Notes under the pieces: model-generated
Seen by the model: the letters and a program-made list of their open reading frames with translations, nothing else
What the model was told of the DNA's origin: nothing
Databases searched by the model: none
Shown here: positions 28,186 to 51,935 of the stretch, piece after piece
Layout: every line of letters begins with the position of its first letter
Numbering within the stretch: position 1 is the stretch's first letter
Source of the DNA: a bacterium
Lineage (GTDB): Bacteria > Latescibacterota > Latescibacteria > Latescibacterales > Latescibacteraceae
Length of the DNA stretch: 52,627 nucleotides
Direction: 5' to 3'
Assembly: GCA_021372535.1 (NCBI GenBank)
Contig: JAJFUH010000179.1
Location: 1 to 52,627, forward strand
Made by a program: the position numbers and the translations under genes

Positions 28186-29556
28186 CTATTCGATACCGTA
28201 CTGTTTCATCTTGTTGAACAGCGTTTTTCTGCTGATTTTCAATGCCTCGGCCGATACTGTCCGGTTATTGTCATACTGTCTCAGGGTTTTAAGGATAAGT
28301 TCCTTTTCGAGCTTCATACAGAGTTGCCGTACATACTCTTCAAGGCCAGCATCACGATCGGCAGTGTCCTGAACGTTTTCGGGGAAACCGCTTACCCGGA
28401 GAGGCAGATGCCCGGTATCGATGATACCGTCCCTGGCAAGGATCATCGCGCTCTGGATCGCATTTTCAAGGTCTCTGACATTCCCCGGCCAGTCATAGGA
28501 ATTAAGGGCATCGACAGCGGCCATTGAAATCGTTTTAACGTAAAGCCCCATGAGCCTGTTGTGTTTCTCGATAAAATGCTCGACGAGGAGCGGAATATCG
28601 CTCTTTCGTGAGCGCAGGGGCGGAACGGTAACCGTAAAAACGTTCAGGCGGTAAAGAAGGTCGAGCCGGAAATTCCCATGATCGACTTCCTCGGCAAGTT
28701 TTTTATTCGTTGCGGCGATAATTCGAACGTCAACAGAAATCGATTCCCTTCCACCAAGACGGGTGATTGTGCGTTCTTCGAGCACCCGCAGCAGTTTGAC
28801 CTGGGCGTTCTGGGGTAGTTCTCAGATCTCGTCGAGAAGATGGGTGCCGCCGTGTGCCAGCTCAAACGTTCCGATTTTCCGTTCGCGCGCATCGGTGAAA
28901 GCCCCTTTTTCGTGCCCGAAAATTTCGCTTTCAATGAGATTTACCGGAATGGCGCCGCAATTTATGGAGATGAGAGGTTTGTCCTTCCGCCTGCTGTTGA
29001 AATGGAGGGCTTTGGCGACGAGTTCTTTCCCCGTTCCGCTCTCCCCCTGGATGAGCACGGTTGCGTTGGTATCGCATACACGGTACATCTGTTCGAACAA
29101 CTGCTGTATCTGCGGGCTGACCCCGATGATTGTTTCAAAACGGTATTTGTCCTGGAGCTGTTTCCGGAGCGCCGAGATTTCGAATGTCAGGCGGTTATGC
29201 TCAAGCGCACGGCGTATCACGATGAGCAGTTCTTCATTATCAAACGGTTTGGTGAGATAATCGTATGCACCCTTTTTCATCGCTTCCACAGCCTGCGGAA
29301 TGGAGCCGTACGCGGTAAGGAAAATTATGGTCCTGTCAGGCGTTCTCTCTTTTATGCGGCACATGGTTTCGATTCCATCGATTCCGGGCATATTCTGATC
29401 CATCAGGATGAGCTCGGGATCAAAAGCCTTCAGACAATCGAGTGCATCTTCCCCGCTCTCCGCGGTCTGAACCGTATATCCCTCGTCAGTCAGAATCTGC
29501 GTTAGAATGAAACGAATCTTTTTTTCATCATCAACCACGAGTATCTTCTGCGCCAT
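28186..29556 (-). pseudogene. NtrC-family sigma-54 response regulator interrupted by an in-frame TGA
   Basis: One frame encodes receiver (D53), sigma-54 AAA+ and Fis-type DNA-binding domains over 457 codons. Walker A is GESGTGKE at 171-178 and the sigma-54 contact loop is GAFTDA (218-223, GAFTGA variant). Codon 245 (28,822-28,824) is TGA, exactly where the family has Gly in the LLDEIGELP motif; the text resumes in the same frame with ELPQNAQVKLLRVLEER. A single GGA-to-TGA change explains this. The rest, including the C-terminal helix-turn-helix (TVSAEALKISRKTLFNKMKQ), is undamaged. Without read-through the product ends after half the ATPase domain. The 5' end overlaps the kinase gene by 26 bases. 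A sequencing error cannot be excluded. Confidence 0.85.
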
Positions 29557-30853
29557 CTTTTTTCCCTGCCGTATGGTGGTGATTATGTGCCGTTTTGAAA
29601 ATGGGGAGCATGATCGAGACGGTTGTGCCGTGATTTTTCGGATAATCGCTCATTGTCCTGCTTTCGATTTCAATTTCACCGCCATGCTGCTGAATGATAC
29701 CGTAGGAAATAGAAAGTCCAAGCCCGGTTCCGTCCTTCTTGGTGGTAAAAAAGGGATCGAAAATATGCTCGATATGTTCCGGCGGTATTCCGACCCCCGT
29801 ATCTCTGAACATGATATAAAACGATTCCCGGGGAGTACCCGAGAAACTGTTGGTCTTTTTCAGATCAACGGAAATTGAAAGAAATCCGCCCTCATCCATG
29901 GCCTGCAAAGCATTCATGATGATATTGAGAAATACCTGTTTGAGCTGCGAGGTATCGGCGTTTACCGTTTTCTCCGGTGCATTGAAGTTATAACCGACCG
30001 TGATATTCCTTTTCTTTGCGGTCGTGGCGACAAGGCTCAATGTCTGTTCGAGGAGATAATCGAGATTGACATTTTCCGTCTGCGGCGTGCTCGGTTTGGA
30101 AAAGGAAAGGAGTCCCTCGATTATTTCATTGATACGATCGACCTCCTCGATAAGGCTGTCCAGGAGAACGCGTTTGTTGTCGTCCCGGAAATCTTTCTGA
30201 AGGTACTGGATGGTGCTGCGGATGGATGTGAGTGGATTACGGATTTCGTGAGCGGCGCCCGCTGCAAGCTGACCGGCAGTGGCCAGCCTGTCGGCGCGGT
30301 ACATTTTCTTGAGACGGGTTTTCTGCTGGTGGTAAAGGAACGCATTTTCGAAGGCAAACGATGCCTGACCGAGAAGGGTGTCAAGCAATTCGATTTCCTC
30401 GGGAGAATAATCGCTGTCATCCGACTTCGACCCAATACACACAAGCCCTGTGATACGGTTCATGACCATAAGCGGGGAAATCAGAGTGACCTTCAATTCG
30501 GATAAAATCCCCTGTTCATGTTCATTGAAATATGAGAAAACCGCCGGTTTTTCCGATATGAGAAGGTGGGTTTCATTGATGGTGAACCACCGGACAAGCG
30601 GCTCATCGGAGGAGAAATAAAGGCTGCTCCTTTTTATGATATCGAGTCCGCGCGTTTCGGCAAGCTCGAAACGGTTCAGGTCGGGATTGAGAAGGAAAAT
30701 CTGAATCGAGTCGACACGAATACATTCGCGGATTTTCGAAATAACATTGTCCTTGAGCTGTTCGAGATCGATGATGAGTGTCAGGGACTTGCTGAACTCG
30801 GTAAACGCCTGACGGAAATCATCCTTTTTGCGACGAAGCGGTAACCCAAGCAT
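29531..30853 (-). CDS. Cytoplasmic GAF-domain sensor histidine kinase
   Basis: Residues 15-175 form a GAF-like sensor domain (for example LIIDLEQLKDNVISKI ... LLGQASFAFENAFLYH). A HisKA dimerisation domain carries the phosphorylated His202 in AAGAAHEIRNPLTSIR. The ATP-binding domain has the N box (QVFLNIIMNALQAM), DTGVGIP, FDPFFTTK and GTGLGLSI. There is no membrane segment, so the signal is intracellular. The class is ZraS/AtoS-like and pairs with NtrC-type regulators, as the overlapping downstream gene shows. AAGGAG lies 11 bases before the ATG. The kinase is intact although its regulator is interrupted. Confidence 0.92.
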   Translation of the reverse strand: MLGLPLRRKKDDFRQAFTEFSKSLTLIIDLEQLKDNVISKIRECIRVDSIQIFLLNPDLNRFELAETRGLDIIKRSSLYFSSDEPLVRWFTINETHLLISEKPAVFSYFNEHEQGILSELKVTLISPLMVMNRITGLVCIGSKSDDSDYSPEEIELLDTLLGQASFAFENAFLYHQQKTRLKKMYRADRLATAGQLAAGAAHEIRNPLTSIRSTIQYLQKDFRDDNKRVLLDSLIEEVDRINEIIEGLLSFSKPSTPQTENVNLDYLLEQTLSLVATTAKKRNITVGYNFNAPEKTVNADTSQLKQVFLNIIMNALQAMDEGGFLSISVDLKKTNSFSGTPRESFYIMFRDTGVGIPPEHIEHIFDPFFTTKKDGTGLGLSISYGIIQQHGGEIEIESRTMSDYPKNHGTTVSIMLPIFKTAHNHHHTAGKKDGAEDTRG

Positions 30854-37642: not shown

Positions 37643-37755
37643 ATGTTGTGTTCGCATGTCGACAGGCGGTTTTTATTTGGCATACATGTTGCATTTCTTA
37701 TAAAAAAAACGAAAATGAAGTCATAACAGATACATTTTTTTGTGGGAGATACGGT

Positions 37756-39303
37756 ATGAAATGGTTGAGCACATTAAAAATTTACGCACTGTTTTTTCCA
37801 TTTATATTCCTGTTGAATCAGCATCCTGCCGCTGCACAGCAGTCATGGGTATTGACGTATGAAGACGCGATTGCCATCGCGCTCGAAAAGAGTTTTACGG
37901 TCAAATCCTATGAAGCCCGTAAAGAGGCGATGCAGCATTCCTACCAGTATTACAAGGCCGTTTTCAAGCCTCTTGTCGATTTCAGCATATTCGCTCCCTC
38001 CCTGAGCGAGAGCGTATCACCCATCCAGCGCACCGACGGGTTGCCGGTTTACAATTCCAACGGTATTCTGCAGATGGGCGGAACACTCAAGTTCACCTAC
38101 ATGCTTCCTTCGGGCGGGAACTTCGCGCTTACATCCCAGATGTACCGCGAAAACCTGAAGACTGTTCTCGCCCTCAGAGACTACGAGAAAATGAAGACCG
38201 ACCAGGCGTACAGCAGCCTCAGCCTCAGCTTCGATCAGCCGATTTTCACCACCAATACGCTCCGTGAAAATCTCAAAGAGGCCGAATACTACTACGAGAA
38301 ATCCTCGAGCGAGTTCACCCGTCGCCAGCTCGACATCATCTATGATGTCACGAACAGTTTCTATTCACTCTACCGGGCGGTACGCGAGGTCGAGATAGCC
38401 AGCGAAAAACTGAGAAACTCCGAGGAGGCGTATCGAATCGCGAAGTTAAAGGGTGAAAAGGGGAAAATCCCGGAAGGCGATGTGCTCATTGCCGAAATCG
38501 AGATGAGCCAGAACAGGGCCAATCTTTCCGAAGCCGAAAGCGGACGCGAACGGAATGCGGACATGCTCAAGCAGCTCATAGGGCTCAATCAGGAGGACAC
38601 TGTCACCATTGTGACCGACCTCAAGTATAAAACATTCGAAGTCGAACTGAACAAGGCTATCGAGGAAGCCCAGAAAAACAGGCTCGAACTCTATGAATCG
38701 GAGCTCGATGTCAAACTGCAGAACATCGAGATCGACCGCGCCGAACGTGAGCAGGAATTCAAAGGCAGCATTTCGGCCTACTACGATGTGACCGGAGTCA
38801 GCACGACGGGAAGCGGCACGACACGGTCGCTGTTCGAATCGTCGTTCGATAATTTTGTCGACCGTCCCCCCAACCGCGGAATCACGCTGACATTTTCATA
38901 CCCGGTTTTCGACTGGGGACGCGGCGATGCGAAAGTCCGTAAAGCACAGGTAACCCTGAAGGAAAGGCAGCTCAGTCAGGAAAACACGCGTGAAACCATC
39001 GTCCGCGAGGTCAAGGATACGGTACGGAAAGTCAATGAAGCGAAGAGCCGCCTGAGCATCTACGAGAATTATCAGGATGTGGCCAAGCGGAGCTACGATA
39101 TCAGCCGCATGAGGTTCGAGAACGGCGACATTACGAGCCAGGAGCTCGCCCGTGAACAGGAACGGCTCGCCGAAGTACAGCTCAACTATCTCGATGCATT
39201 CATCACATACGAACTCGCGCTGGCGGACCTCAAGCGCCAGACCCTCTGGGATTTTGAAAACAATCGTACATATCTCATCAATAGACAGGAACAGGGGAAA
39301 TAA
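37756..39303 (+). CDS. TolC-like outer-membrane efflux protein
   Basis: I choose the ATG at 37,756 (GGGAGA upstream; signal peptide MKWLSTLKIYALFFPFIFLL ... AAAQ) over a longer frame without signal-peptide logic. The 515-residue protein has the duplicated OEP pattern: TYEDAIAIALEKSFTVKSYEARKEA at the N-terminus and a second repeat with long coiled-coil helices (KLRNSEEAYRIAKLKGEKG, AEIEMSQNRANLSEAESGRE). It ends with a C-terminal helix pair (MRFENGDITSQELAREQERL, LNYLDAFITYELALADLKRQ). It should form the outer-membrane exit duct of a tripartite exporter. The adaptor-like gene begins two bases after its stop, and the ABC genes follow. Confidence 0.92.
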   Translation: MKWLSTLKIYALFFPFIFLLNQHPAAAQQSWVLTYEDAIAIALEKSFTVKSYEARKEAMQHSYQYYKAVFKPLVDFSIFAPSLSESVSPIQRTDGLPVYNSNGILQMGGTLKFTYMLPSGGNFALTSQMYRENLKTVLALRDYEKMKTDQAYSSLSLSFDQPIFTTNTLRENLKEAEYYYEKSSSEFTRRQLDIIYDVTNSFYSLYRAVREVEIASEKLRNSEEAYRIAKLKGEKGKIPEGDVLIAEIEMSQNRANLSEAESGRERNADMLKQLIGLNQEDTVTIVTDLKYKTFEVELNKAIEEAQKNRLELYESELDVKLQNIEIDRAEREQEFKGSISAYYDVTGVSTTGSGTTRSLFESSFDNFVDRPPNRGITLTFSYPVFDWGRGDAKVRKAQVTLKERQLSQENTRETIVREVKDTVRKVNEAKSRLSIYENYQDVAKRSYDISRMRFENGDITSQELAREQERLAEVQLNYLDAFITYELALADLKRQTLWDFENNRTYLINRQEQGK

Positions 39304-39305
39304 GC

Positions 39306-40802
39306 ATGAAAACACGGATCAGAAACGGCGTTTGTATTCTGGTATGGGTATGCTGCATGGTATTTGGTTTTCCGCGCATGTCTGACGGTCAGACCGACCA
39401 GGCATCGCTCCTTCTCGATCTGAAAAAGGCGCGGGCGGCATACGAAATCGCCAAACAGAAATTCGAAAACGATAAAGTGCTTTACGAAAACAAGGCTATC
39501 TCCGAGGATGAGTTCACCAAGTCGAAAAACGAGGTTCTCAGCAGCGAAGTCGATTATCAGAAGCTCATTCTCAGGGTTATCGCGCAGCAGTCGTATGTCA
39601 TCGTGGAAAAAGCGGTCAAATATCAGACGCACACGGGTGAGCGGCGCATACGGCTTTCCCTCCAGAGCACCATGGAGGGCAACCAGGAATATCTTCAGCA
39701 GTTCCAGGAGCACTTCGATGTTTTCACTCCCGAAATGCGGTCGAACAAGATATACAACATCTTTGTATCCCTGCTGAATCTTCAGGACAACACCATTATC
39801 GGGGCGCCGTATGAAAAACGTGTCCCCGTTCTCGAACTGGGCAGTTCGACCACGGTCGATTTCGGCCTCCTCCGCGATGTCGAGAGCCTCAAGGTGAGCC
39901 TCAATTACGGCGGCAGGCACGACGACAAGAACATATACCTCGAAAAGGATGCGAGCGCCAACATCGTCGACATCAACTCAGTCCAGTTCTCACAGGAGGC
40001 GGATATCGGCTCGCAGGCGACGTTCGACCTCAACCTTGAGCGTTTCTCCGACACCGACGATGTGTATTCGCTCATGACGGTCAACCTGCCCCGCCAGGTC
40101 TCCAATGAATTCATCGATTCCGACACGAACGCCCGTCTCTCCCAGATCAAATTCACCCAGGGAGTCAACACGAAAAAGCTCGCGCTCAAGGTCTATCTCC
40201 CCGACCGTGACGACGAGGATGTGGTCATCGACAGGCCGCTCGTCTTCTACGCGCTCGTTTTGTCCCGTGACGAGTACGCCGCGCTGGAAGACAAACGAGG
40301 TACAATTTTCGACCAGAAGGACATCGATGAGATACAGGCGGGCAAGGTGCGCCTTGAACTGATCCCACGCGGTGTCGGCAGGATCGAAGTCCGCGTCCCC
40401 TCGCTTTATCACGAGATCACGGTTGGCGACAGCCTCGATATGGACATAACCGTACGGAACGACGGTACCCGCAGGCTCGACAATATCAAGATAACGACCG
40501 ACAATCCGCTCAACTGGCGCTCATTGATTACACCCGACCTTGTCCGGTCGCTCGATCCCGAAAAGGAAGAAATCGTCCACGTGACCTTTGTCCCGCCCTC
40601 CGATGTCGGTGTGGGGGCGCAGGAGCTGAAAATCAAGACGGAAGCGCTCGCCGACAACCGACGTGTCCAGACGGAGGACAAGACCGTCCGCATCATGGTG
40701 GAAGCGAAAACCCCGATCCTCATGACAGCGCTGCTCATCATGCTGCTCATCGGACTTGTACTCGGAATCGTGATATTCGGAATCAAGATCAGCAGAAGGT
40801 AG
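39306..40802 (+). CDS. Membrane-anchored NEW3-domain protein with adaptor-like alpha-hairpin
   Basis: The 498-residue protein has a signal peptide (CILVWVCCMVFGF). A helical hairpin follows at about 32-100: LLDLKKARAAYEIAKQKFEN, then VLYENKAISEDEFTKSKNEV, closely resembling the hairpin turn of HlyD/RND-type periplasmic adaptors. Next come a beta-rich middle, an immunoglobulin-like NEW3-type domain (about 375-465; YHEITVGDSLDMDITVRNDG, IKITTDNPLNWRS), and one C-terminal membrane segment (ILMTALLIMLLIGLVLGIVIFGI) with KISRR as cytoplasmic tail. This is the reverse of normal adaptors, which anchor at the N-terminus. Placement between TolC and ABC genes supports an adaptor role (inference). The start is two bases after the TolC stop. 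Confidence 0.72.
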   Translation: MKTRIRNGVCILVWVCCMVFGFPRMSDGQTDQASLLLDLKKARAAYEIAKQKFENDKVLYENKAISEDEFTKSKNEVLSSEVDYQKLILRVIAQQSYVIVEKAVKYQTHTGERRIRLSLQSTMEGNQEYLQQFQEHFDVFTPEMRSNKIYNIFVSLLNLQDNTIIGAPYEKRVPVLELGSSTTVDFGLLRDVESLKVSLNYGGRHDDKNIYLEKDASANIVDINSVQFSQEADIGSQATFDLNLERFSDTDDVYSLMTVNLPRQVSNEFIDSDTNARLSQIKFTQGVNTKKLALKVYLPDRDDEDVVIDRPLVFYALVLSRDEYAALEDKRGTIFDQKDIDEIQAGKVRLELIPRGVGRIEVRVPSLYHEITVGDSLDMDITVRNDGTRRLDNIKITTDNPLNWRSLITPDLVRSLDPEKEEIVHVTFVPPSDVGVGAQELKIKTEALADNRRVQTEDKTVRIMVEAKTPILMTALLIMLLIGLVLGIVIFGIKISRR

Positions 40803-40850
40803 AAAGACAGGCAAAAGGCACAAGGCAGAAGGCATAAGGGAAAAGAGACA
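40803..40850. repeat. AAGGCAN heptamer repeat block 1
   Basis: Directly after the TAG stop, AAAGACAGGC leads into tandem 7-base units AAAGGCA, CAAGGCA, GAAGGCA, TAAGGGA. The same lead-in and units follow permeases 2 and 3. It is non-coding low-complexity sequence. Confidence 0.7.
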
Positions 40851-40923
40851 AAGAAAAAAACGATTGCAGTAAGTACAATCCATGATGAACAGCAATTGTG
40901 ACTGTGAAAAGGAAAGCGCCATC

Positions 40924-40998
40924 ATGTTCATGACTCTCTGTTTTAAGGAAATCCGGGAGTCGGTATCTAATCCAACCGTGCAAGGCAGGATACCATGA
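40924..40998 (+). pseudogene. 24-codon ghost of an ABC permease N-terminus
   Basis: An ATG with AAAGGA about nine bases upstream encodes MFMTLCFKEIRESV and ends at a TGA that overlaps the permease 1 ATG (ATGA). The first 13 residues match the start of permease 3 (MFSTLFLKEIRES) at 10 positions, with synonymous differences. Like permease 3 it follows a heptamer block. It looks like the remnant of a duplicated permease gene whose body was lost; it might now serve as a leader peptide coupling translation to permease 1. Confidence 0.6.
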
Positions 40999-42260
40999 TA
41001 AGGCACATAGCTTTGAAGGAAATCCTTAACAACCTCTACAGTTTCAAATTCATAGTTGTGACGCTGCTCATGGTGGTTACGATGATCATGAGCCTGTTCA
41101 TCATGTATAACGACTACCAACTCCGCATGGAAAACTATGAAATACTGAGGCCGTCTTCGAAGGAGCCTGTCGCCATCGTCCCGCCGACGCCGCTTTCGAT
41201 TTTCGTGCGGGGGCTCGACGAGACTATCGGACGGTCGTACCTGGTGCGGTTCGCGGGTCAGATCGAGGTGGGAAGCGGACAGCAGGCGGTCAACATCGTG
41301 TTCAGGCTGTTCACCAGCCCCGACTGGATGTACATCGTGAAAGTCATCATGTCGCTCTGCGCCCTCCTGTTTTCGTTCAACATGGTGAACGGGGAGAAAG
41401 AGGCTAAAACCTTAGGGCTCGTACTGTCGAACAGCATCAGCCGGCCCACGCTCATCATCGGTAAGTGGATTGGCGGCTTCGCGAGTTTCATCGTTCCCTT
41501 CATACTGATTTTTCTCTCCGGCGCACTGGTAATCCTCATCTCTCCCCATGTGCATTTTGCTGGTGAACAGTGGGTGAAGCTGTTGCTGTTTTTTGTCAGC
41601 TCGGTGGTCTATCTGGCGTTCTTTTACTCGCTCGGGCTCTTTCTGTCAAGCGTCACGCACTCACAGGCATCAGCCATCGTTCTTGCGCTCTTTCTCTGGG
41701 CGCTCACTGTTTTTGTCGTCCCCAACCTCGGCAATACACTGGCGCGGCAGTTCGTAAAAATCCAGTCCGTCCAGCAGCTCGAGCTGATCCGAAACCGTAC
41801 CTGGATCAAGGCAGTTTTCGAAGCTATAACGGCACGAAGACGGGGAGACAAATCGGCCAGCTTCGATAATGCAATGAGATCCATCAACAACGAAAACGAC
41901 AAGCTGATCGCAGATTACCGGACCCGTTTCAACACGCTCGTTGCGCTCTCGAAAAACATTACGCGGATATCGCCGGCAGCGGCGTTCACCTATCTTTCCA
42001 CCGATGTTGCGGGTACGGGTATCATCGAGGAGCAGCGGGTTAAAGACGCTGTAATACAATACAAGGACATGGTGTGGAACAAGCCGACCGACTCGGATGG
42101 CAATGTTGTCGGAGATTTTCCTCCGTTCTCCTATCAACGCCGGTCACTGGAAGATATATTGGCAAAGGAGGGATTTGCCAATCTGCTTGTGCTCACCCTG
42201 TTCGCCCTGCTTTCATTCACCGCGGCGTATGTCGTGTTCCTGCGGTACGATGTCCGATAG
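40995..42260 (+). CDS. ABC-2 permease paralogue 1
   Basis: This inner-membrane subunit is of the NosY/DUF3526-like ABC-2 type. Its 421 residues form six segments: TM1 (18-38), a periplasmic loop with PPTPLSIFVRG, TM2 (112-132), a cytoplasmic coupling region GEKEAKTLGLVLSNSISR, TM3-5 (to about 245, ending VVPNLG), a large periplasmic loop containing ISPAAAFTYLSTDVAGTG, and TM6 followed at once by FLRYDVR-stop. N- and C-termini are cytoplasmic in this model. Its ATG overlaps the ghost peptide stop, with AGGA just upstream. It presumably pairs with another permease and the shared ATPase. Confidence 0.85.
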   Translation: MIRHIALKEILNNLYSFKFIVVTLLMVVTMIMSLFIMYNDYQLRMENYEILRPSSKEPVAIVPPTPLSIFVRGLDETIGRSYLVRFAGQIEVGSGQQAVNIVFRLFTSPDWMYIVKVIMSLCALLFSFNMVNGEKEAKTLGLVLSNSISRPTLIIGKWIGGFASFIVPFILIFLSGALVILISPHVHFAGEQWVKLLLFFVSSVVYLAFFYSLGLFLSSVTHSQASAIVLALFLWALTVFVVPNLGNTLARQFVKIQSVQQLELIRNRTWIKAVFEAITARRRGDKSASFDNAMRSINNENDKLIADYRTRFNTLVALSKNITRISPAAAFTYLSTDVAGTGIIEEQRVKDAVIQYKDMVWNKPTDSDGNVVGDFPPFSYQRRSLEDILAKEGFANLLVLTLFALLSFTAAYVVFLRYDVR

Positions 42261-42295
42261 CGTTTGAGTAACAGCCCAATAAGGAGAATGAGACC

Positions 42296-43726
42296 ATGAA
42301 GAGAATAATTGCCAGGGAGTTTCTGAACAACCTCCTCAACCTGAGATTCAGTATCGGGCTGCTGCTCTCCGTTCTGCTCACCATCGTGTGCGTGCTGATT
42401 CTGACGCACCAGTTCCAGATGGAGATGGACGATCACAGCACCAGGGTGGCTATCCAGGATGATTTTCTCAATAACTATGCCCACACAAACCGCCTGGGTG
42501 GGATGATCCAGCCGCAAAAACCGCCCGAGCAGTTCCGTCCGTTCATTATCGGAATCCAGCGCGATGCCGATCTCAACTCGTACGAGGACAATCCGCTCCC
42601 GGTGCTGTTTCCCCATATCGATTTCCTGTTCATCGTCACCATAATCATGAGCCTCATGGCAATCCTGTTTTCGTACGATGCGATCACCGGGGAGCGTGAA
42701 CAGGGAACGCTGCGGATGCTCACTGCCGGATCTATATCACGGGCATCTATCCTTATCGGCAAGTGGATCGGCGGTCTGGCGAGTCTCGGTATTCCGCTCA
42801 TGGTTTCTCTCCTGATCGGCGCAATCTACGTGACAGTCCATCCACTCGTGCACTGGGATGAATCGGCATGGCTGTCCTTCTGTCTTGTATTCCTGGCATC
42901 GGTCATGTACATTTCGTTGTTCTACCTCCTCGGGCTGCTTGTATCGGGCTTCTCACGGTTTTCTTCGACATCGATTCTCACTTCGCTCTTTCTCTGGGTT
43001 TTACTGATACTGGTCATACCGAATCTCGCTCCATATGTCGTAGCGCAGATATACCGTATACCATCGGTGAACAAGATCGAACGTGAGGCAAGGATAATCA
43101 CCGGCATAGACCGTGACAACCTCGGCAACGAGTTGTCGAAGAAGGTCGCTCAGCAATTCGAAGCGGAGTACGGTGCGCGGTTTACCGAGTACAAGGCGAT
43201 GCCGTCCGACGCAATCCGTCAGCGCGTGGCGGCCGATCCCGCTTTTAAAAACATGCACGAAGCATACCGTAAGGCAGACAGTGCCGCATGGGACGAGGCA
43301 AACCGGATTCAAGGCGAAAAGGCGAGTGTTCTCAGACAGGAGCTCGACAGAAAATCACAAAATCAGATGCTCCTGGCGGGACTGGTCGCCTGCCTGTCCC
43401 CGTACACTGATTTCCTCTATGTCGCCACCGATCTGACCGGCACCGGTTTCAGGAGTCTGACGTATTTCAGCGATGTACAGAGCCAGTATTACAAATCCTA
43501 CTATGATTATCAGGAGAAAAAAGTCGCGGAAGCAAAAAAGAACGATCCGACATTCGACAGCAATACCTTTCTCGATATCAGCGACCGTCCCCGGTTCAGA
43601 TTCACCGAAGAGCCGCTCATCGGCCGCCTGAAGTGGACGCTGCCGTTCTGGGGCGTGCTCGTGTTGTTCAACATCGTATTGTTTGTCGGAGCGTATGTGA
43701 AGTTCATCAGGTACGATGTGAGATGA
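42296..43726 (+). CDS. ABC-2 permease paralogue 2
   Basis: This is a 476-residue member of the same family: TM1 near 20-40, coupling motif TGEREQGTLRMLTAGSISR after TM2, TM3-5 ending VIPNLAPYV, a charged periplasmic loop (about 255-430) with LSPYTDFLYVATDLTGTGF, and TM6 ending GAYVKFIRYDVR-stop. The coupling motif reads AGSISR where most paralogues have LSNPVxR. The PPxPLSIF motif of the first loop is not recognisable (KPPEQFRPFIIG instead), so it diverges from paralogues 1, 3 and 4. AAGGAG lies ten bases before the ATG. A heptamer repeat block follows the stop. Confidence 0.85.
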   Translation: MKRIIAREFLNNLLNLRFSIGLLLSVLLTIVCVLILTHQFQMEMDDHSTRVAIQDDFLNNYAHTNRLGGMIQPQKPPEQFRPFIIGIQRDADLNSYEDNPLPVLFPHIDFLFIVTIIMSLMAILFSYDAITGEREQGTLRMLTAGSISRASILIGKWIGGLASLGIPLMVSLLIGAIYVTVHPLVHWDESAWLSFCLVFLASVMYISLFYLLGLLVSGFSRFSSTSILTSLFLWVLLILVIPNLAPYVVAQIYRIPSVNKIEREARIITGIDRDNLGNELSKKVAQQFEAEYGARFTEYKAMPSDAIRQRVAADPAFKNMHEAYRKADSAAWDEANRIQGEKASVLRQELDRKSQNQMLLAGLVACLSPYTDFLYVATDLTGTGFRSLTYFSDVQSQYYKSYYDYQEKKVAEAKKNDPTFDSNTFLDISDRPRFRFTEEPLIGRLKWTLPFWGVLVLFNIVLFVGAYVKFIRYDVR

Positions 43727-43780
43727 AGGCAGTAAAGACAGGCACAAGGCATAAGGCAAAAGGCACAAGTGAAAAGAACA
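43727..43780. repeat. AAGGCAN heptamer repeat block 2
   Basis: Immediately after the TGA, GAAGGCAGTAAAGACAGG leads into CACAAGG, CATAAGG, CAAAAGG, CACAAG. The lead-in differs by one base from that after permease 3. Confidence 0.75.
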
Positions 43781-43802
43781 GTAAATACACGCAGGTGACA
43801 CC

Positions 43803-45263
43803 ATGTTTTCCACACTCTTTTTGAAAGAAATCCGTGAATCCATTATGGCGCACTGGTTTTATATGGTGACCCTGATCTGTCTTATTCTGATTCCTTTCAG
43901 TCTGTATATCGGGACACTGAATTACCGGCAAAGCATGATCGATTACCGAGAATCGATTCGTCTGTACCACGATAAAACAGATGGCTGGGTAGATGTCGAC
44001 AGCAATGTAGAAGGGTTCAGACCCCCTTCGCCACTCAGCATTTTCGATGGAGGCATTCAGAATGATATCCCGTCGAAAGTTATTGCTTCCCCCGATGGTG
44101 TGGTACGAATGATCGATGAACCGGGAGTCCGAAATCCGAACGGCAGCCTTTTCGGATCGTTTGATTACCGTTTTATGGTGAGTGTGATACTATCACTTCT
44201 TTCACTCATCTTTACGTTCAATGCCATCACCGGCGAAAAAGAGTCCGGCACGTTCAGGCTGATCATGTCGAATCCCGTACCCCGCTGGGTAATGCTCTCA
44301 GGGAAGCTGATCGGACGCTATATCCTGTTTGTTATTCCGTTTACGATAGCGCTTATCGCCGGAGTGATCCTCATATTTGTAACGGACAGTTCTATCATAA
44401 TGCAATCCGAATTTCTGCCGAACATCGTTGCAATAATGCTTATATCGTATCTCTTCATCTTTGCGATTTTTTCTCTCGGAATCATGCTTTCCACGCTGAC
44501 ACACCATTCCATGATGACTGTTTTTGTGAGCTTGTTTGTCTGGATATTCATCGTTTTCGGGATACCGAAGCTCAGCCCCATGCTCGCACAAATCATGTAT
44601 CCGGTCAGATCGCCACAGATTGTCAACACTGAAAAACAGCTTGTCAGACGCACTATTGAAAAAGAGCTCAATGAACGCCGCAGTCAACTCTTTGAAACTA
44701 CGATGAGGTCATTCGGTATTGACGACTGGGAAAAGGTATACCGTGATCACAACGATAACGGGCCGCAGATCGATCACGAAGCATTTCGCGAATACGACGC
44801 GAAAGCATCCGCACTCGTCACCGAATATCGTGAACGAATTGTGGATGCATATGCATCGATCGACCGGAAATACACGAACGAATTAAACCGTCAATCGGCA
44901 TTCGCTCAGTGCCTGGCGCGATTGTCACCGGTCAGCTGTTACTCATTTCTCGTGTCCGACCTTTCCGGAACGGGTCTTGAAGCATTGATTTCTTTCAGAA
45001 CAGCAGCCCGCGCATTTCAAAATCGACTCGATAATGAATTATACAGGAAGAACGTTATAAATGTATACGGTCGTCATGACGGCCCTCATATTACCTCAAT
45101 CAAGGGTGGACGTATTCGCGTCCCGGAGCTGATCCAGTTCGGGTATGTAAAAGCCGGCGATGTTATTCAGACTGACCGAATCGATTTTCTGCTCCTGATA
45201 CTGTATGCGATTCTCTTCTTCACTGTGGCATTCGTGAAATTCATCCGATACGATGTAAGATGA
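43803..45263 (+). CDS. ABC-2 permease paralogue 3
   Basis: The 486-residue product starts MFSTLFLKEIRES, the sequence echoed by the ghost peptide at 40,924. It has TM1 (20-40), a periplasmic loop with PPSPLSIFDGG, coupling motif TGEKESGTFRLIMSNPVPR, TM3-5 ending GIPKLSPML, a second periplasmic loop with LSPVSCYSFLVSDLSGTG, and TM6 ending AFVKFIRYDVR-stop. The AGGTGA ribosome-binding site lies just after heptamer block 2. Its codon usage is more AT-rich at third positions than TolC, the NEW3 protein and the ATPase, by eye. Confidence 0.85.
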   Translation: MFSTLFLKEIRESIMAHWFYMVTLICLILIPFSLYIGTLNYRQSMIDYRESIRLYHDKTDGWVDVDSNVEGFRPPSPLSIFDGGIQNDIPSKVIASPDGVVRMIDEPGVRNPNGSLFGSFDYRFMVSVILSLLSLIFTFNAITGEKESGTFRLIMSNPVPRWVMLSGKLIGRYILFVIPFTIALIAGVILIFVTDSSIIMQSEFLPNIVAIMLISYLFIFAIFSLGIMLSTLTHHSMMTVFVSLFVWIFIVFGIPKLSPMLAQIMYPVRSPQIVNTEKQLVRRTIEKELNERRSQLFETTMRSFGIDDWEKVYRDHNDNGPQIDHEAFREYDAKASALVTEYRERIVDAYASIDRKYTNELNRQSAFAQCLARLSPVSCYSFLVSDLSGTGLEALISFRTAARAFQNRLDNELYRKNVINVYGRHDGPHITSIKGGRIRVPELIQFGYVKAGDVIQTDRIDFLLLILYAILFFTVAFVKFIRYDVR

Positions 45264-45328
45264 AGGCGGTAAAGACAGGCACAAGGCAGAAAAAAGCAGG
45301 CAAAAGGCAGAAGGCAGAAGTGAAAAAA
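45264..45328. repeat. AAGGCAN heptamer repeat block 3
   Basis: Immediately after the TGA, GAAGGCGGTAAAGACAGG leads into CACAAGG, CAGAAAA, then AGCAGGC, AAAAGGC, AGAAGGC, AGAAG units. It is the longest of the three blocks and stands in the spacer before the ATPase gene. Confidence 0.75.
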
Positions 45329-45389
45329 CAATAACAAATACAATATGATGAAAAACATTTAAAGAAACCTTAAAAACGGAGGTATTACC

Positions 45390-46106
45390 ATGTTACAGGC
45401 AATCGATCTGACGAAACGGTATGAGGACGGGCTTCTCGCGCTCGACCACATGAGCCTCGATGTCAAGGAAAGCGAAATCTTCTGTCTTTTGGGCGCGAAC
45501 GGCGCCGGAAAGACGACGACCATCAACCTGTTCCTCAACTTCATCGAGCCGACGAGCGGCACCGCGCTTATCAACGGCATCGATGTGACCAAAGACCCCC
45601 TCGAAGCAAAGAAGTATGTGTCCTATGTCTCCGAGAACGTCATGCTCTACGGCAACTTCACCGCCCGTCAGAACCTCGACTTTTTCGCCAAGCTTGGCGG
45701 GAAAAAGAACCTGACCAAGGAAGACTACCACATGTTCATGCGCAAGGTCGGGCTCAAGGAAGAAGCGTTCGAGATGCGGGTCAAGAACTTCTCGAAAGGT
45801 ATGCGCCAGAAGCTCGGCATCACCATCGCCATCATCAAGGATGCACCGAACATCCTCCTCGACGAGCCGACATCGGGCCTCGACCCCAAGGCGGCTGCGG
45901 AGTTCATCAAGATTCTCGCCGGTCTCCGCGACCAGGGGAAATCGATTCTCATGAGCACGCACGACATCTTCCGCGCCAAAGAGATCGCCGACCGTGTCGG
46001 GATCATGAAGGAGGGACGGCTTGTCATGGTGCGTACGCGCGAGGAGTTCCTCGAAGAAGACCTCGAGAAAATCTACCTCGAATACATGCAGGAAGCTGTG
46101 GCATAA
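45390..46106 (+). CDS. ABC transporter ATPase shared by the permease array
   Basis: The 238-residue ATPase has Walker A GANGAGKTTT (near 34-43), a Q-loop region (YVSYVSENVMLY, in which Glu stands near the usual Gln), the signature FSKGMRQKLG in place of LSGGQ as is usual for ABC-2 exporters, Walker B NILLDEPTSGLDP and switch STHDIFRAKEIADR. It energises transport by the membrane subunits. It is the only ATPase among seven permease genes, and lies between paralogues 3 and 4. GGAGG is eight bases before the ATG. Third codon positions are strongly C/G, unlike permease 3, which may reflect higher expression. Confidence 0.96.
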   Translation: MLQAIDLTKRYEDGLLALDHMSLDVKESEIFCLLGANGAGKTTTINLFLNFIEPTSGTALINGIDVTKDPLEAKKYVSYVSENVMLYGNFTARQNLDFFAKLGGKKNLTKEDYHMFMRKVGLKEEAFEMRVKNFSKGMRQKLGITIAIIKDAPNILLDEPTSGLDPKAAAEFIKILAGLRDQGKSILMSTHDIFRAKEIADRVGIMKEGRLVMVRTREEFLEEDLEKIYLEYMQEAVA

Positions 46107-46165
46107 GGAGTATTTCAGGATATTCGGAATGTTCACGCTTTTTTTAAAATTTTTGGAGCAATACC

Positions 46166-47761
46166 ATGATTCTGTCTGTAGCCCTCAAAGAATTTTACAC
46201 GAATCTCATTTCCGCACGGTTTACTATCGGTTTTCTCCTGTGCCTGTTTCTCATCCCGTTCACCATGGTAGTGAGCATAAACGACTATGAATCGCAGGTG
46301 CGGGCATATGAGCTCGAAAAAAAACAGGCCGATGAAAACAACAAGATTCGTGTCTATTCGGCGCTCCGCCCGGAGATAGTCAGACCGCCCGAACCGCTCA
46401 GTATTTTCAGCCGCGGTATCAGCTACAAGGTGGGTAATAAGGTCACTACGAGGCTTGGCGAAAAAACACTCCTGGCGGAAGGACGGAGCTCTGTCCGCGA
46501 AAATCCGCTCCTCAACTCGTTTTTTTCCCTCGATTTCAGCACGGTGATTACCATCATCATGTCGCTCCTCGCGCTCCTGTTCACCTATGACGCATGCAGC
46601 AGGGAACGCGAGGAAGGGACGTTGAAACTCGTGCTGTCGAACCCGGTGAACCGATGGAAAATCCTCCTGGGTAAAGTGATTGGTATCCTGATAACGATGA
46701 TGCCGGTAATCCTTTTCTGTTACGGTCTCAGCGCGGTCATCATCCTCTTCCATCCTCATCTGGAGTTTTCGGCGCACGAGTGGGGGCGAATCGTGTTCAT
46801 GTTCGGATTGAGCATCGTTTTCTTTACCTTTTTCGCGGCACTCGGGCTTCTCGTTTCCGCCCGCACGCATTCATCGGTCACCAGTATCATCATCTGCCTG
46901 TTCATATGGGTGGCAGCCGTGTTTGTCGTACCCAACGCGTCAGTGTATGTGGCAAAGAGCTTCATCGCCACGGAATCGCAGGAAAACCTCCGGTATGCTC
47001 TCAACGATCTGGACAGAAATTTTTCCACCAAGGTTCGCGAATACCGACAAACCCTCGATCAACCGGACTGGTGGATGAACTGGAACATGAACAGCTATGG
47101 TGATGGCTATATGGAAGTGTCCGGCAATACACGAAGTCTCATGGAACTGTACAGGAAACTGTGCCAGTATTCGGAACCACTCCGGATACAGTATGCGGAT
47201 GAAAAATGGGCAATTCAGAAAGCCTACCTCGACAAGCTTGACAGGCAGCGTCTTTTCGCCGAGTGGCTTTCCCTTCTTTCACCGTCCGAGATGTTCCGTC
47301 AGAGTGTGTCCGCGATGTGCAGGACGGATGTTCCGGCACACTACCATTTTCTCGACAAAGCACGGGAATACCGCGAGGAGCTGATACAGTTCTTTCGGGA
47401 CAAGGACATGTTCGCATCGTACGAATACTTCACCCGTCAGGACCCAAAAACGTTTATGACCGCGGACGAGATCGTGCGGATACGGACCGGCGGTGAGTTT
47501 AAAACACTCCGGGAATACGGAGAATGGGCGCAGCTGCATAACGGCGATTTCAAACCTCTGCGAAAAGTGGATATCCCCGGTACAGATTTATGGAAGTACG
47601 AGCCGCTCGACCTTTCCGGAGTACCACAGTTCAGATGGGAATCATCCACGTTCGCGTATGACGTGAATAATTCCCTCATCAGGCTTGCTTTGTTGCTTTT
47701 AGGGGATGTCATACTCTTCTATCTGGCGTTCATTTCGTTCATCCGTTACGATGTGAGGTAA
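46166..47761 (+). CDS. ABC-2 permease paralogue 4
   Basis: At 531 residues this is the longest paralogue. It shows TM1, first loop PPEPLSIFSRG, a TM2 ending FTYDACS, coupling motif REEGTLKLVLSNPVNR, TM3-5 ending VVPNASVYV, an enlarged second periplasmic loop (about 280-500) with LSPSEMFRQSVSAMCRTD, and TM6 ending AFISFIRYDVR-stop. The usual GE before the coupling motif is SRERE here. TTGGAG precedes the ATG. The last codons GATGTGAGGTAA supply GAGG as the ribosome-binding site for paralogue 5. Confidence 0.85.
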   Translation: MILSVALKEFYTNLISARFTIGFLLCLFLIPFTMVVSINDYESQVRAYELEKKQADENNKIRVYSALRPEIVRPPEPLSIFSRGISYKVGNKVTTRLGEKTLLAEGRSSVRENPLLNSFFSLDFSTVITIIMSLLALLFTYDACSREREEGTLKLVLSNPVNRWKILLGKVIGILITMMPVILFCYGLSAVIILFHPHLEFSAHEWGRIVFMFGLSIVFFTFFAALGLLVSARTHSSVTSIIICLFIWVAAVFVVPNASVYVAKSFIATESQENLRYALNDLDRNFSTKVREYRQTLDQPDWWMNWNMNSYGDGYMEVSGNTRSLMELYRKLCQYSEPLRIQYADEKWAIQKAYLDKLDRQRLFAEWLSLLSPSEMFRQSVSAMCRTDVPAHYHFLDKAREYREELIQFFRDKDMFASYEYFTRQDPKTFMTADEIVRIRTGGEFKTLREYGEWAQLHNGDFKPLRKVDIPGTDLWKYEPLDLSGVPQFRWESSTFAYDVNNSLIRLALLLLGDVILFYLAFISFIRYDVR

Positions 47762-47763
47762 CC

Positions 47764-49161
47764 ATGCTCCTCGATATTATATTCCGTGAATTACGGAGTA
47801 CCGTTCTCAGTTTACGGCTCCATATCGCGCTTGTTCTCACCCTCATGGTTTTCTGTATCGGCAGCGCCGCATTTGTCAAGGATTACCGGGCGGGCAAGGA
47901 AATCTCCCTGCGGTACCGGAGTGAAGTATCGAAGGAGCTCCGTGAAGCCGCGGAACAGAATATTTCCAGACTGGCCACCATGCGGCAGCATTATCTCTTC
48001 GAGCCCAGCACAGACACGTTCATCGATGACGCGAAGGAAAAATACCTCCCCAACAGTTTCGAATACAGCGCCTACAACGTGTACGGATTCGATGTGAGCT
48101 CTGGCGCCGCGAATCCGTATCTCCAGGAATTTCAGGAATTGAACTGGATGTTCATCGTATCGCTCATCATGGGTTTTGTCGTCTTTCTGTTTACATTCGA
48201 CGCCGTTTCGGGTGAAAAGGAAGCGAAGACCCTGGCGCTGGCATTCGCAAATTCATTGTCGAGAGGCACTCTCCTGCTCGGGAAGTACATCAGCGCCATA
48301 ATCGCCTCGATGCTCGTTCTCTTTCCGGGAATCTGCCTGAGCCTCGTGATCGTATTCATAACCGGAACGATCGCCGTGTCAGGCGCTCTCATAATTGAGA
48401 TACTGGTTTTCCTGGCGGCTGCCGGAATTTTTGTCGCCTGTATCGCAGCGTTCGGCATGCTCGTGTCGGTTGTCACGCGGTCGGCAAATGTAAGCCTTCT
48501 TCTAGCACTCACCTGCTGGCTCATCTTTGCCGCAATAGTACCCAATACAGCTCTTTTCTGGGCTCAGACGCTCTTCCCTATCGAGAAAGCCGAAATCATC
48601 GCGGAGAAAATTCAAAAAGCGCGCGAAGAAATCAACAGAAACGCCCCGCCGGGAAGCTGGGCATCATCAAGCAACATGCCGTTCCTTCCCGAGCACGAGC
48701 TGAGAGCGGCCAACCAGACAAATATCATGAACAGCAGAAAACAGATATGGGACTCCTACTGCAACGACAGGATACGGCAGCTTCAGCGAGTGCGGAAGGT
48801 TACTTTCCTGTCGCCGGTGTCGCTTTTCGAGTATATGAGCGAGGCCGTCGTCGGTGGAGGATTCGTGCGGTTCGAGAAAAACTGGAACGACCTCCATGTG
48901 TTCCAGGAACAGTTCCTCGGTTTCTTCAAGGAAAAAGACGCGCAGGACCCTGTCAGCCCGCACTGGTACAATCCGTACGAAGATTATTCGACATCAAAGA
49001 AGCCGGTGAATTTTTCCGAAGTTCCTCTCTATACGGAAAAACCGGCAACCATCGAAGAACGTCTTACACGGGCCGGATTGTATCTCGCTGTCCTAGTATT
49101 ATATGCGGCAGCCGCATTTTCCCTGTCATTCATGGTATTTGTACGGTACGATGTACGGTAA
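47764..49161 (+). CDS. ABC-2 permease paralogue 5
   Basis: The gene starts two bases after the stop of paralogue 4. The 465-residue product has the common layout: TM1 (18-36), coupling motif SGEKEAKTLALAFANSLSR, TM3-5 ending IVPNTALFW, a second loop with LSPVSLFEYMSEAVVGGGF, and TM6 ending SFMVFVRYDVR-stop. The first periplasmic loop lacks PPxPLSIF and instead ends in a segment with YNVYGFDVSSGAANPYL. Together with paralogue 2 it forms the group lacking that motif. Confidence 0.85.
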   Translation: MLLDIIFRELRSTVLSLRLHIALVLTLMVFCIGSAAFVKDYRAGKEISLRYRSEVSKELREAAEQNISRLATMRQHYLFEPSTDTFIDDAKEKYLPNSFEYSAYNVYGFDVSSGAANPYLQEFQELNWMFIVSLIMGFVVFLFTFDAVSGEKEAKTLALAFANSLSRGTLLLGKYISAIIASMLVLFPGICLSLVIVFITGTIAVSGALIIEILVFLAAAGIFVACIAAFGMLVSVVTRSANVSLLLALTCWLIFAAIVPNTALFWAQTLFPIEKAEIIAEKIQKAREEINRNAPPGSWASSSNMPFLPEHELRAANQTNIMNSRKQIWDSYCNDRIRQLQRVRKVTFLSPVSLFEYMSEAVVGGGFVRFEKNWNDLHVFQEQFLGFFKEKDAQDPVSPHWYNPYEDYSTSKKPVNFSEVPLYTEKPATIEERLTRAGLYLAVLVLYAAAAFSLSFMVFVRYDVR

Positions 49162-49213
49162 TGCAGGATTGTAACAGATATCACTCGATATCACACGGTA
49201 AAGGAACTATTTC

Positions 49214-50542
49214 ATGTTGGGAACAATTATCGCCCGTGAGATTCAGGAGCACCTGAAATCATCGAAGTTCCAGCTCGGTTTTCTGATCACGATAGCATTG
49301 ATCTCCATCAGCACATCAATCAATATAAGCGACTATATGCAGCGTAATCAGGACTATCTGACCGCACGGGCCGAACCGATAGACAGATTTTACGTGTCCG
49401 TATATAAGCCGCCGCAGGTGCTCAGTATACTGGCGCAGGGAAAGGACAGGAAACTCGGCAACAAAGAGGAAATGAGCATCACCAGAATTGCCGACCGGAC
49501 AACCGGATACATGGGATCGGAGAGTCAGCATAAACGGTACATGTCGGGTTTCACCGCAGTCGACTTTGCCTTCGTGGTACGGGTTGTGCTCAGCCTTATG
49601 GTCATTTTTCTTGCCTACACAAGCATTTCGGAAGAGAAATTCTCGCGGACGCTCAGTCTGGTACTGTCCAATCCTGTTCCCCGTGATACGCTATTACTCG
49701 GTAAATGCCTGGGCGGGATGTGTATAATCACCGTATCATTTATAGCTGCGATAATAGTGGCGGTGCTGATGATGATTTCTCAACCGTCGGTTGTCCTCGG
49801 TACATCCGATATAGTCCGTATTATCGGGATGGCAGGTGTGTCAGTCCTCTATCTCTCGGTTTTCTATACCATGGGACTGCTTGTATCGATACTCGTAAAC
49901 CGCCCGGCCATAGCTCTCATGGTACTGCTGCAGGTATGGGCGTTTCTGATAATCATTTATCCTGCCATAAGTGTGATTGCCGCGCAGGATATGTATAAGA
50001 TATTCCCCGACAAGCTGAACCAGCGGAAAGCATCGGCATTTCAGCAATATGAAGAAGAGTACAAACGGAAAACCGATCCGTTTCAGGAGGCGTTCGCCAA
50101 AGGCGGGAGACCGACGAGGGAACAGAGTGCACGGAATGTCGAAGGTAATGCGTTACGAACGGAAGCGTATTACCGTGTCGACCGTGAATTCGCCCGTGAG
50201 ATGGCCGGTCAGACACGTCTTGCCGAAAACCTTTCGGTGTTGTCACCGGCCGTACTGTACGACCAGGTCATGACCCGTTATGCACGAACCGGCATGACGG
50301 ATTATGAGCGTTTTTTCGAAAGCGTCTTCCGCTTCTGGCAGGAGCATGTCAGGCTTTCCGTACTGAGGTTCAGCGATTACGACACATTCAAGAAATCCAA
50401 AACACTCGATTTCGCTTACCAATCCGAAACGGCTGTACAGAGTTTCCATGGAACCGTACGGTCCCTGATTATCCTGTTTCTACTCAATATACTGTTCTTT
50501 ACCACAGCCTATGTGGTTTTTCTGAGAAAAGATGTGAGGTAA
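49214..50542 (+). CDS. ABC-2 permease paralogue 6
   Basis: This is a 442-residue paralogue with TM1, first loop PPQVLSILAQGKDRKLGN (a PPxPLSIF variant), coupling motif SEEKFSRTLSLVLSNPVPR, TM3-5 ending IYPAISVIA, a charged second loop with LSPAVLYDQVMTRYARTG, and TM6 ending AYVVFLRKDVR-stop. Here Lys replaces the Tyr of RYDVR. AAAGGA lies nine bases before the ATG. The final codons again provide GAGG for the next gene. Confidence 0.85.
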   Translation: MLGTIIAREIQEHLKSSKFQLGFLITIALISISTSINISDYMQRNQDYLTARAEPIDRFYVSVYKPPQVLSILAQGKDRKLGNKEEMSITRIADRTTGYMGSESQHKRYMSGFTAVDFAFVVRVVLSLMVIFLAYTSISEEKFSRTLSLVLSNPVPRDTLLLGKCLGGMCIITVSFIAAIIVAVLMMISQPSVVLGTSDIVRIIGMAGVSVLYLSVFYTMGLLVSILVNRPAIALMVLLQVWAFLIIIYPAISVIAAQDMYKIFPDKLNQRKASAFQQYEEEYKRKTDPFQEAFAKGGRPTREQSARNVEGNALRTEAYYRVDREFAREMAGQTRLAENLSVLSPAVLYDQVMTRYARTGMTDYERFFESVFRFWQEHVRLSVLRFSDYDTFKKSKTLDFAYQSETAVQSFHGTVRSLIILFLLNILFFTTAYVVFLRKDVR

Positions 50543-50546
50543 CCGC

Positions 50547-51935
50547 ATGAAAACAGTCATTATACGGGAATTCATGGAACATGTGAAAAGCATACAGTTT
50601 GTCGTTCTTCTGGTTTTCGCCGTCACGCTCTTCTCCATCAACGGAGTGTATTTTTCCCGGAAATACAATCAGCTTATGACGGTATTCCTGAGCAGCAGTC
50701 AGGAAAAAAGTACCGTATCCACGACACTTTCACGGCAGCCGTCACCACTCCTGTTCATGTCCGAGGGCGGAGACACATACCGTCCCGGACAATACCGGCT
50801 TGCGCCAAAATATTCATTATCCGCACAAACGTCCGATGAAAGTAACTACATGTTACCCGATATTCCGGAACCGGACTGGACATTCATCGTTTCCATCATT
50901 TTCAGCCTCTATGTCATTCTCCTGGGGTATAACGCAATCTCCGGTGAGCGTGAACAGGGAACGATGCGCCTCATTCTTTCCAATCCCATAGGCCGGATTA
51001 AGCTGGTTGTTTCCAAATATGCGACCATCCTTTTAACCGTGACCGCGATACTGTCGGCGGGTGTCCTTATAAGTCTCATTATCACAGGATTATCGAATCC
51101 CGTGGTGTTCACGACCGGTTATCTTGCGAGAATCGCACTGATGATCGTTCTTTCTCTGGCGTACCTTTCCATTTTCGCTTTTCTGAGCCTCATGTTATCG
51201 TCCCTGATCGGTAATTCCTCGCTCGTCCTTATGATATCGCTCGCTCTCTGGATTTTCCTGGGAATCATCATACCGAATACATCCGGAATCATCGCTGAAA
51301 AAATCTCCCGGGTCCCGAGTGAATTTCAGACATCCAATCAACTGGGGCCGGTCATACAAAAACAGCTTGATATCGATATCGATACAATACGTGAACGGGC
51401 ACATAAGGGTGAAATCAGAACGGAAGACGAGGCGAAAAAGGAATTTGACCGTATCTGTGAAAATTGCCAGGACAGCTATATCAAATACTATAATAATTAT
51501 GACAACTCCATGAAACAACGGGCGGCAACCGCGCAGAATTTATCGCGGATATCGCCGACAGCGCTCTTTCAGTATGCAGCGGAAAACCTTACGGGAACCG
51601 GCATCGACAGCGAAGAGCGATTCATGCGGGATATTCAGGTATATTCCGCGCTCTATGACAATTACATCCGGAAAAAGATAGGAAAACTGGTAAGCACGTC
51701 ACAGTGGTCATTTATGACAGATATCAATGTCGACGGGAAAAATATCCTGGTGCAGTCACCCCGGCCCGAGGAATACCAGGGCGACAATTCCGATTTCCCG
51801 ATGTTCCGGGAAAGCAGGCCTGACATTGTGCGAAGCCTGAGAGATGCGCTCATGGACATGGCGGGCATCCTTTTGTGGAATATCGTTCTGGCAATGGGAG
51901 CTTTTACCGCGTTCCTGCGGGCCGATGTCAGGTGA
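50547..51935 (+). CDS. ABC-2 permease paralogue 7
   Basis: This is a 462-residue paralogue starting four bases after paralogue 6. It has TM1, first loop QPSPLLFMSEGGD (degenerate PPxPLSIF), coupling motif SGEREQGTMRLILSNPIGR, TM3-5 ending IIPNTSGII, a second loop with ISPTALFQYAAENLTGTG, and TM6 ending AFTAFLRADVR-stop, with Ala in place of Tyr. A CENCQD pair of cysteines in the periplasmic loop is unusual for the array. It is the last gene of the locus; no clear terminator follows in the next 60 bases. Confidence 0.85.
   Translation: MKTVIIREFMEHVKSIQFVVLLVFAVTLFSINGVYFSRKYNQLMTVFLSSSQEKSTVSTTLSRQPSPLLFMSEGGDTYRPGQYRLAPKYSLSAQTSDESNYMLPDIPEPDWTFIVSIIFSLYVILLGYNAISGEREQGTMRLILSNPIGRIKLVVSKYATILLTVTAILSAGVLISLIITGLSNPVVFTTGYLARIALMIVLSLAYLSIFAFLSLMLSSLIGNSSLVLMISLALWIFLGIIIPNTSGIIAEKISRVPSEFQTSNQLGPVIQKQLDIDIDTIRERAHKGEIRTEDEAKKEFDRICENCQDSYIKYYNNYDNSMKQRAATAQNLSRISPTALFQYAAENLTGTGIDSEERFMRDIQVYSALYDNYIRKKIGKLVSTSQWSFMTDINVDGKNILVQSPRPEEYQGDNSDFPMFRESRPDIVRSLRDALMDMAGILLWNIVLAMGAFTAFLRADVR

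Follow-up and report, generated by a model that had tools for sequence, protein, structure and literature searches.

A widespread, apparently undescribed exporter-type gene family in which several ABC-2 permease pairs likely share one ATPase

The stretch of DNA analysed here (the window) is 52,627 nucleotides long and is the entire contig C179 of a 5.35-Mb MAG of Ca. Latescibacterota. It carries an array of ten genes belonging to a real, widespread, modular family of exporter type that is apparently undescribed: no description of it was found in the open-access literature searched. Its carriers are a little-studied group of bacteria from soil and water. On balance, we think it probable that the array encodes a modular exporter, in which several interchangeable permease modules are served by a common core. 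If this is true, exchanging permeases on a common motor and duct would represent a new and cheap way of multiplying export specificities, and a large group of unstudied NosY-type permeases from uncultured phyla would gain a testable function.

The ten ORFs of the array (bp 37756-51935) are all complete, collinear and located on the + strand, with intergenic gaps of 2-192 bp. The first (37756..39303) encodes a 515 aa TolC-like outer-membrane factor (Pfam OEP, PF02321: 156 bits against a cut-off of 22 bits, E-value: 9.4e-46) and the second (39306..40802) a 498 aa adaptor candidate that we call N (Pfam NPCBM_assoc: 32 bits). These are followed by the first and second permeases of one pair, P1 (40995..42260; 421 aa; PF12679 E-value: 1.8e-33) and P2 (42296..43726; 476 aa; 2e-28), and by P3 (43803..45263; 486 aa; 3.8e-28), a singleton type. 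The sole ABC ATPase gene of the array (45390..46106; 238 aa; PF00005 E-value: 8.1e-27) lies between P3 and P4. P4 (46166..47761; 531 aa; PF12679 E-value: 1.3e-31) and P5 (47764..49161; 465 aa; 1.4e-30) form a second pair, while P6 (49214..50542; 442 aa; 6.3e-27) and P7 (50547..51935; 462 aa; 9.5e-31) form a family-specific one. The original prediction of seven complete, co-directional permeases behind TolC and N, with a single ATPase between the third and the fourth, was confirmed for all ten ORFs. The window ends with its contig, so that the array might in principle extend beyond bp 52627, but the 692 bp downstream of P7 contain no gene. Genes for a DUF5916/CBM9 protein and an M1-like peptidase lie upstream of the array. 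Elsewhere in the same genome (G000; contigs C34/C199 and C106/C77, L052-L055), a further P4-P5-like pair without an adjoining ATPase and a second ATPase, 82% identical and accompanied by the start of a permease, were observed at contig ends.

All seven permeases match ABC2_membrane_2 (PF12679) with 95-116 bits (curated cut-off: 27.2 bits), and their pairwise identities are ~20-33% (E-values: 1e-20 to 1e-53). Conservation is highest in the cytoplasmic coupling loop (mean 48% identity), while TM2 and TM6 show 36-39% identity and the remaining regions 13-25%. The main periplasmic insert averages 13% identity and varies in length from 69 to 112 aa, consistent with the expectation that the periplasmic loops differ strongly. 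Of the two motifs that had been proposed as common to all seven proteins, [LI]SP is present in 7/7, but GE(K/R)ExGT occurs in its strict form in P2, P3 and P7 alone; P1 and P5 have K in place of G, P4 has REREEGT and P6 has EEKFSRT. Invariant residues in this region are E134, T139, R150 and K157 (P1 numbering), and the C-terminus is D-V-R in all seven. The predicted six-segment topology agrees with the AF2 model of P4 (pLDDT 90, pTM 0.88), which shows six TM helices and two periplasmic inserts arranged on a NosY-type core; TM1 extends into the periplasm, and TM5 and TM6 are separated by helical inserts. At E ≤ 0.001, this model matches no solved fold other than NosY (Foldseek, 7o0y, 1.7e-06, TMt 0.61), which is also the best sequence match (1.1e-18).

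N, chosen for its specificity, was used as the search marker. Of 41 genomes searched around the window, 15 contained it, and the GTDB genome collection yielded 55 loci, in phyla labelled Latescibacterota, Bacteroidota, Ignavibacteriota, KSB1, Acidobacteriota, Gemmatimonadota and Planctomycetota. All N loci situated away from contig edges (38/38) have an ATPase, permease or TolC gene of the set within 4 kb. The usual core unit is N, ATPase and two permeases: writing T, N, A and P for the TolC, N, ATPase and permease genes, N-A-P-P is typical of Ignavibacteriota, KSB1 and Acidobacteriota, and T-N-A-P-P of Tannerellaceae (as T-N-A-P4-P5). Other layouts are A-P-P-N (family f2), A-P-P-P-P-N (some Ignavibacteriota) and P-T-N-A with a single permease (G016). 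The N proteins of Tannerellaceae and kin are 52-60% identical to that of the window, which suggests lateral transfer.

Arrays of at least three permeases with one ATPase were found in other genomes and phyla. Because these arrays recur, chance clustering and private amplification are excluded, and the array is not unique to this assembly, as the original prediction had allowed that it might be. On the closed Latescibacteria chromosome OY282352.1 (G041), 15 of 16 permeases lie within 54 kb (5,207-5,262 kb), with a single N-T-A set inside the island and a single further ATPase at its end. An assembly artefact or recent local amplification, to which the second copies that stop at contig edges in the window's own genome might point, is scarcely credible given that the paralogues are 20-33% identical and have orthologues in other phyla; it is refuted by this 15-permease island on a closed chromosome and by the permease tree.

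Two permease trees were constructed, one of 129 rows, in which P6, P7 and some long rows (L113_1, L136, L087) are not placed with confidence, and a careful one of 50 rows. In the 50-row tree, P1 forms a clade with the third permease and P2 with the fourth permease of four-permease Ignavibacteriota arrays (support 100/100 each), and the only permease pair of L066 also groups with P1 and P2. P4 forms a clade with the first and P5 with the second permease of the Tannerellaceae pair (100/100 each), and the P4-type (96/93) and P5-type (100/99, with P7 inside) clades also take in permeases one and two of the Ignavibacteriota arrays. Relative to the window, the A-P-P-P-P-N arrays of Ignavibacteriota keep the order within each pair, with the two pairs swapped. 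P3, which has no heteropair partner in the window array, forms a clade with an odd permease located between N and the ATPase in Tannerella L060 (100/100) and also groups with a P3-P3' doublet in G002. P6 and P7 are family-specific, occurring in tandem in G002 (P7-P6-P7-P6-P7) and as separate pairs in the same-genus relative G001, where P1 to P5 have orthologues that are 50-70% identical and P3 has moved beside N. Orthology of the seven positions across species, which had been raised as a question, extends to other phyla for P1-P2 and P4-P5; P3 groups with a Tannerella permease, and P6-P7 is confined to the family.

First-partner and second-partner distances are correlated with r = 0.96 over 48 pairs (≤ 0.13 in 2000 permutations), a value to which shared genome history contributes; pairs from one genome still keep their own partners in the tree. 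On the evidence of the tree, P1-P2 and P4-P5 are cognate pairs of ancient origin, whose orthologues in other phyla are likewise paired. Such pairing favours several alternative heterodimers over one large hetero-oligomer, so that, of the two arrangements first put forward, one ATPase serving several alternative dimers gains support and the large complex is disfavoured. That the seven permeases and the ATPase form one hetero-oligomer might be read from seven co-directional genes grouped around one ATPase, yet permeases number from 1 to 19 per genome, are found as lone pairs with one ATPase (Tannerellaceae, KSB1, most Ignavibacteriota), as fours or at separate loci, and include the single permease that accompanies TolC, N and the ATPase in G016. 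We consider this arrangement very improbable. Decayed permease remnants were observed in f8 genomes (L143, G031:C57; L144, G038:C156), which suggests gain and loss of permease modules.

The nearest solved relatives of the array ATPase are ABCA-family NBDs (1e-56). With close homologues defined by E ≤ 1e-50, each genome has 1-3 close ATPase genes and 1-2 N genes (4 in G041), although the ATPase counts may be low for genomes other than G041, which are fragmented MAGs. G041 has 3 close ATPases for its 16 permeases, the window's own genome 2 for 10 permeases, G050 (labelled Gemmatimonadaceae) 2 for 17 permeases on eight contigs, and five f8 genomes one each for 1-4 permease pairs. Pairs in G023, G030, G031 and G050 and on C34/C199 of the window's own genome have no close ATPase on the stretch examined. 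In G031, the ATPase-less permeases are 57-86% identical to the ATPase-linked ones in the coupling loop, versus 17-38% in the periplasmic insert. Gene counts and coupling-loop conservation make it likely that one ATPase is shared by several permease pairs. Alternatively, the separate pairs could depend on more distant ABC ATPases of the same genome, and a first-look count gave 22-103 candidate ABC ATPase matches per genome. If each pair used a distant ATPase of its own encoded elsewhere, co-location in the array would reflect common regulation only. We regard this as improbable: the array contains no second ATPase, A-P-P cassettes of several phyla carry the array's ATPase type, and the coupling loops of separate and linked permeases are highly alike. 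An N-T-A trio with no permease in the 16-kb stretch read was observed at a further G041 locus (L150, G041:C1:1504700-1508400).

N had been described as a membrane-anchored, adaptor-like hairpin protein, and this reading is strengthened by its hairpin-tip motif and its AF2 model. The model (pLDDT 90.7; pTM 0.67, so that the domain arrangement is less sure) comprises an N-terminal alpha-hairpin (residues 28-95), beta domains read as Ig-like, including NEW3, and a C-terminal TM anchor (residues 471-497). At positions 55, 59 and 66 of the hairpin tip, R is found in 23/54 members, L in 50/54 and S or T in 43/54; the complete R-L-S/T combination is present in 17/54 and L-S/T in 39/54, while the N protein of the window has N55-L59-S66, with N where the motif has R. 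These positions, and the family consensus, follow the spacing of RxxxLxxxxxxS, a published TolC-docking motif (PMC3391258). A sequence profile of the hairpin gave weak matches to the adaptor hairpins of MacA, MexJ and CzcB-like proteins (E-values: about 0.01-0.2). There is no HlyD-type Pfam match in N (RND_mfp scores 12.9 bits against a cut-off of 94.9), and the best 50 fold matches shown are Ig-chain and other beta-sandwich proteins with low TM-scores, with no MFP among them. N also lacks the barrel and lipoyl domains of an MFP: its hairpin is N-terminal rather than inserted in a lipoyl domain, and is followed by the Ig-like domains and the C-terminal TM segment. N is predicted to be adaptor-like but is not an MFP; as a candidate adaptor type, it would have nothing but the TolC-docking hairpin tip in common with known adaptors. 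In family f8 and kin (L045-L050, L100-L107), N is duplicated in tandem (T-N-N), which suggests two adaptor paralogues per duct.

TolC directly adjoins N in 25 of 63 N loci, which belong to several phyla (Latescibacterota, Tannerellaceae and a few others), and is absent within 4 kb of N in most loci of Ignavibacteriota, KSB1 and Acidobacteriota. The TolC link assumed at the outset accordingly holds for the first of these groups but, within that distance, not for most loci of the second. The genes found with the system also vary. In G041 and G042, a family of secreted proteins (265-312 aa, apparently with signal peptides, unmatched in Pfam) is interleaved at one or two per permease module (L145-L147, G041:C1:5205790-5249505; L160-L162). 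Its 25 matches in these two genomes, some of them fragments, are nearly all beside permeases, with two G041 matches elsewhere; a search did not find this family in the window's family. A PDZ protein gene precedes N in Ignavibacteriota, and in KSB1 and one untitled bacterium a serine beta-lactamase/DD-peptidase-like gene lies inside the N-A-P-P operon (L067, L068, L071, L089). These varying periplasmic partners, none of which is common to all, would fit permease-specific cargo or clients.

The same variety of partners, the NosY match of the permeases and the lack of TolC near N in many loci also speak for an envelope machine like NosDFY or GldFG that would carry nothing across membranes. Its permeases would transmit ATP-driven motion to partners in the periplasm, which in turn would mature, fold or release other proteins, and TolC would be a fellow member of the regulon instead of a duct. 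Against this stand the direct adjacency of TolC and N in several phyla and the TolC-docking spacing at the N hairpin tip; we regard such a machine as unlikely, while giving it real weight.

In the modular exporter that we prefer, four alternative permease dimers would draw their power from an ATPase homodimer. Three would be heterodimers (P1-P2, P4-P5 and P6-P7), and the fourth is probably a homodimer of P3. The conserved cytoplasmic coupling loop would dock every one of them on the same ATPase, and the divergent periplasmic inserts would confer on each dimer its own specificity. The C-terminal helix of N would fix it in the inner membrane, where it would stand over the permease with its hairpin tip touching the TolC channel, and each ATP cycle would drive cargo, probably from the periplasm or outer leaflet, through TolC. 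A bolder proposal, which we offer tentatively, is that FCB-group bacteria and their relatives possess a hitherto undescribed secretion platform. Up to about 15 dedicated permease dimers or halves would take turns in loading one ATPase-N-TolC core, every one of them having a secreted periplasmic client of its own, such that one machine exports many cargoes from the periplasm.

The array shares features with several known systems. It resembles NosFY(D) in its NosY-type permease core (PF12679) and separate ATPase, but its permeases have periplasmic inserts of about 65 and 230 residues, form heteropairs, apparently rely on one ATPase for many, and sit with TolC and N in place of NosD. No NosD domain was matched in the ten array proteins (Pfam), N consisting of a hairpin and Ig-like domains with NEW3. 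Resemblance to the permeases of GldAFG is distant (TIGR03518: 22-33 bits, below the GldF cut-off of 288.5 bits). In YbhFSR/YbhG-type systems, two ABC-2 permeases and an adaptor gene likewise accompany one ATPase, but the adaptor is a canonical MFP and there is one pair per ATPase. YbhFSR of E. coli has been described as a putative ABC efflux transporter (PMC7190983). MacAB-TolC is similarly ABC-powered, with a hairpin adaptor to TolC, periplasmic cargo and stalk-like periplasmic helices (PMC5985334). However, MacB is a single polypeptide that includes the NBD and has a different membrane fold, and MacA is a canonical MFP, whereas the array has a separate ATPase gene and six-helix NosY-type permeases. 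MacB moves periplasmic cargo by mechanotransmission (PMC5985334), which the stalk-like helices of the permeases and the TolC link may recall by analogy, although the fold differs. The use of many permeases with one motor is well known in importers and has rarely, if ever, been reported for exporters. In MsiK/SugC-type and group II ECF importers, one ATPase serves many permeases or substrate modules. FhuC of S. aureus is another shared-ATPase importer case (PMC10147376). With one ATPase likely serving many permeases, the array would resemble these importers, but it differs in its ABC-2 exporter-type permeases, adaptor-like protein and outer-membrane duct.

A two-component system is encoded on the - strand of the window, 7 kb upstream of the array. 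The NtrC-family response regulator (28186..29556) is 49-58% identical over its full length to regulators beside the same system in Bacteroidota, and the sensor histidine kinase (29531..30853) is 42-50% identical to kinases beside TolC-N in L059 and L061-L063, with further orthologues in L042, L069, L132 and L121. The regulator gene is split by an in-frame TGA (28824-28822, - strand; 'LDEI*ELPQ') that reflects a genuine nonsense mutation or else an error of assembly; orthologues elsewhere are intact. An NtrC-type regulator and kinase adjoin the system in Tannerellaceae, in Latescibacterota L042 and L132, in the Ignavibacteriota array L069 and in G002 (L121). Just upstream of the TolC gene is a sigma54-like -24/-12 site, TGGCATACATGTTGCA (37678..37693, + strand), which matches 10/11 consensus positions and is the only 10/11 site in the window. 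We infer that the operon may be switched on from this promoter by the associated NtrC-type system. In six related loci (L042, L059, L069, L070, L121 and L132), sigma54-like sites (9-11/11) likewise lie upstream of the first gene of the system.
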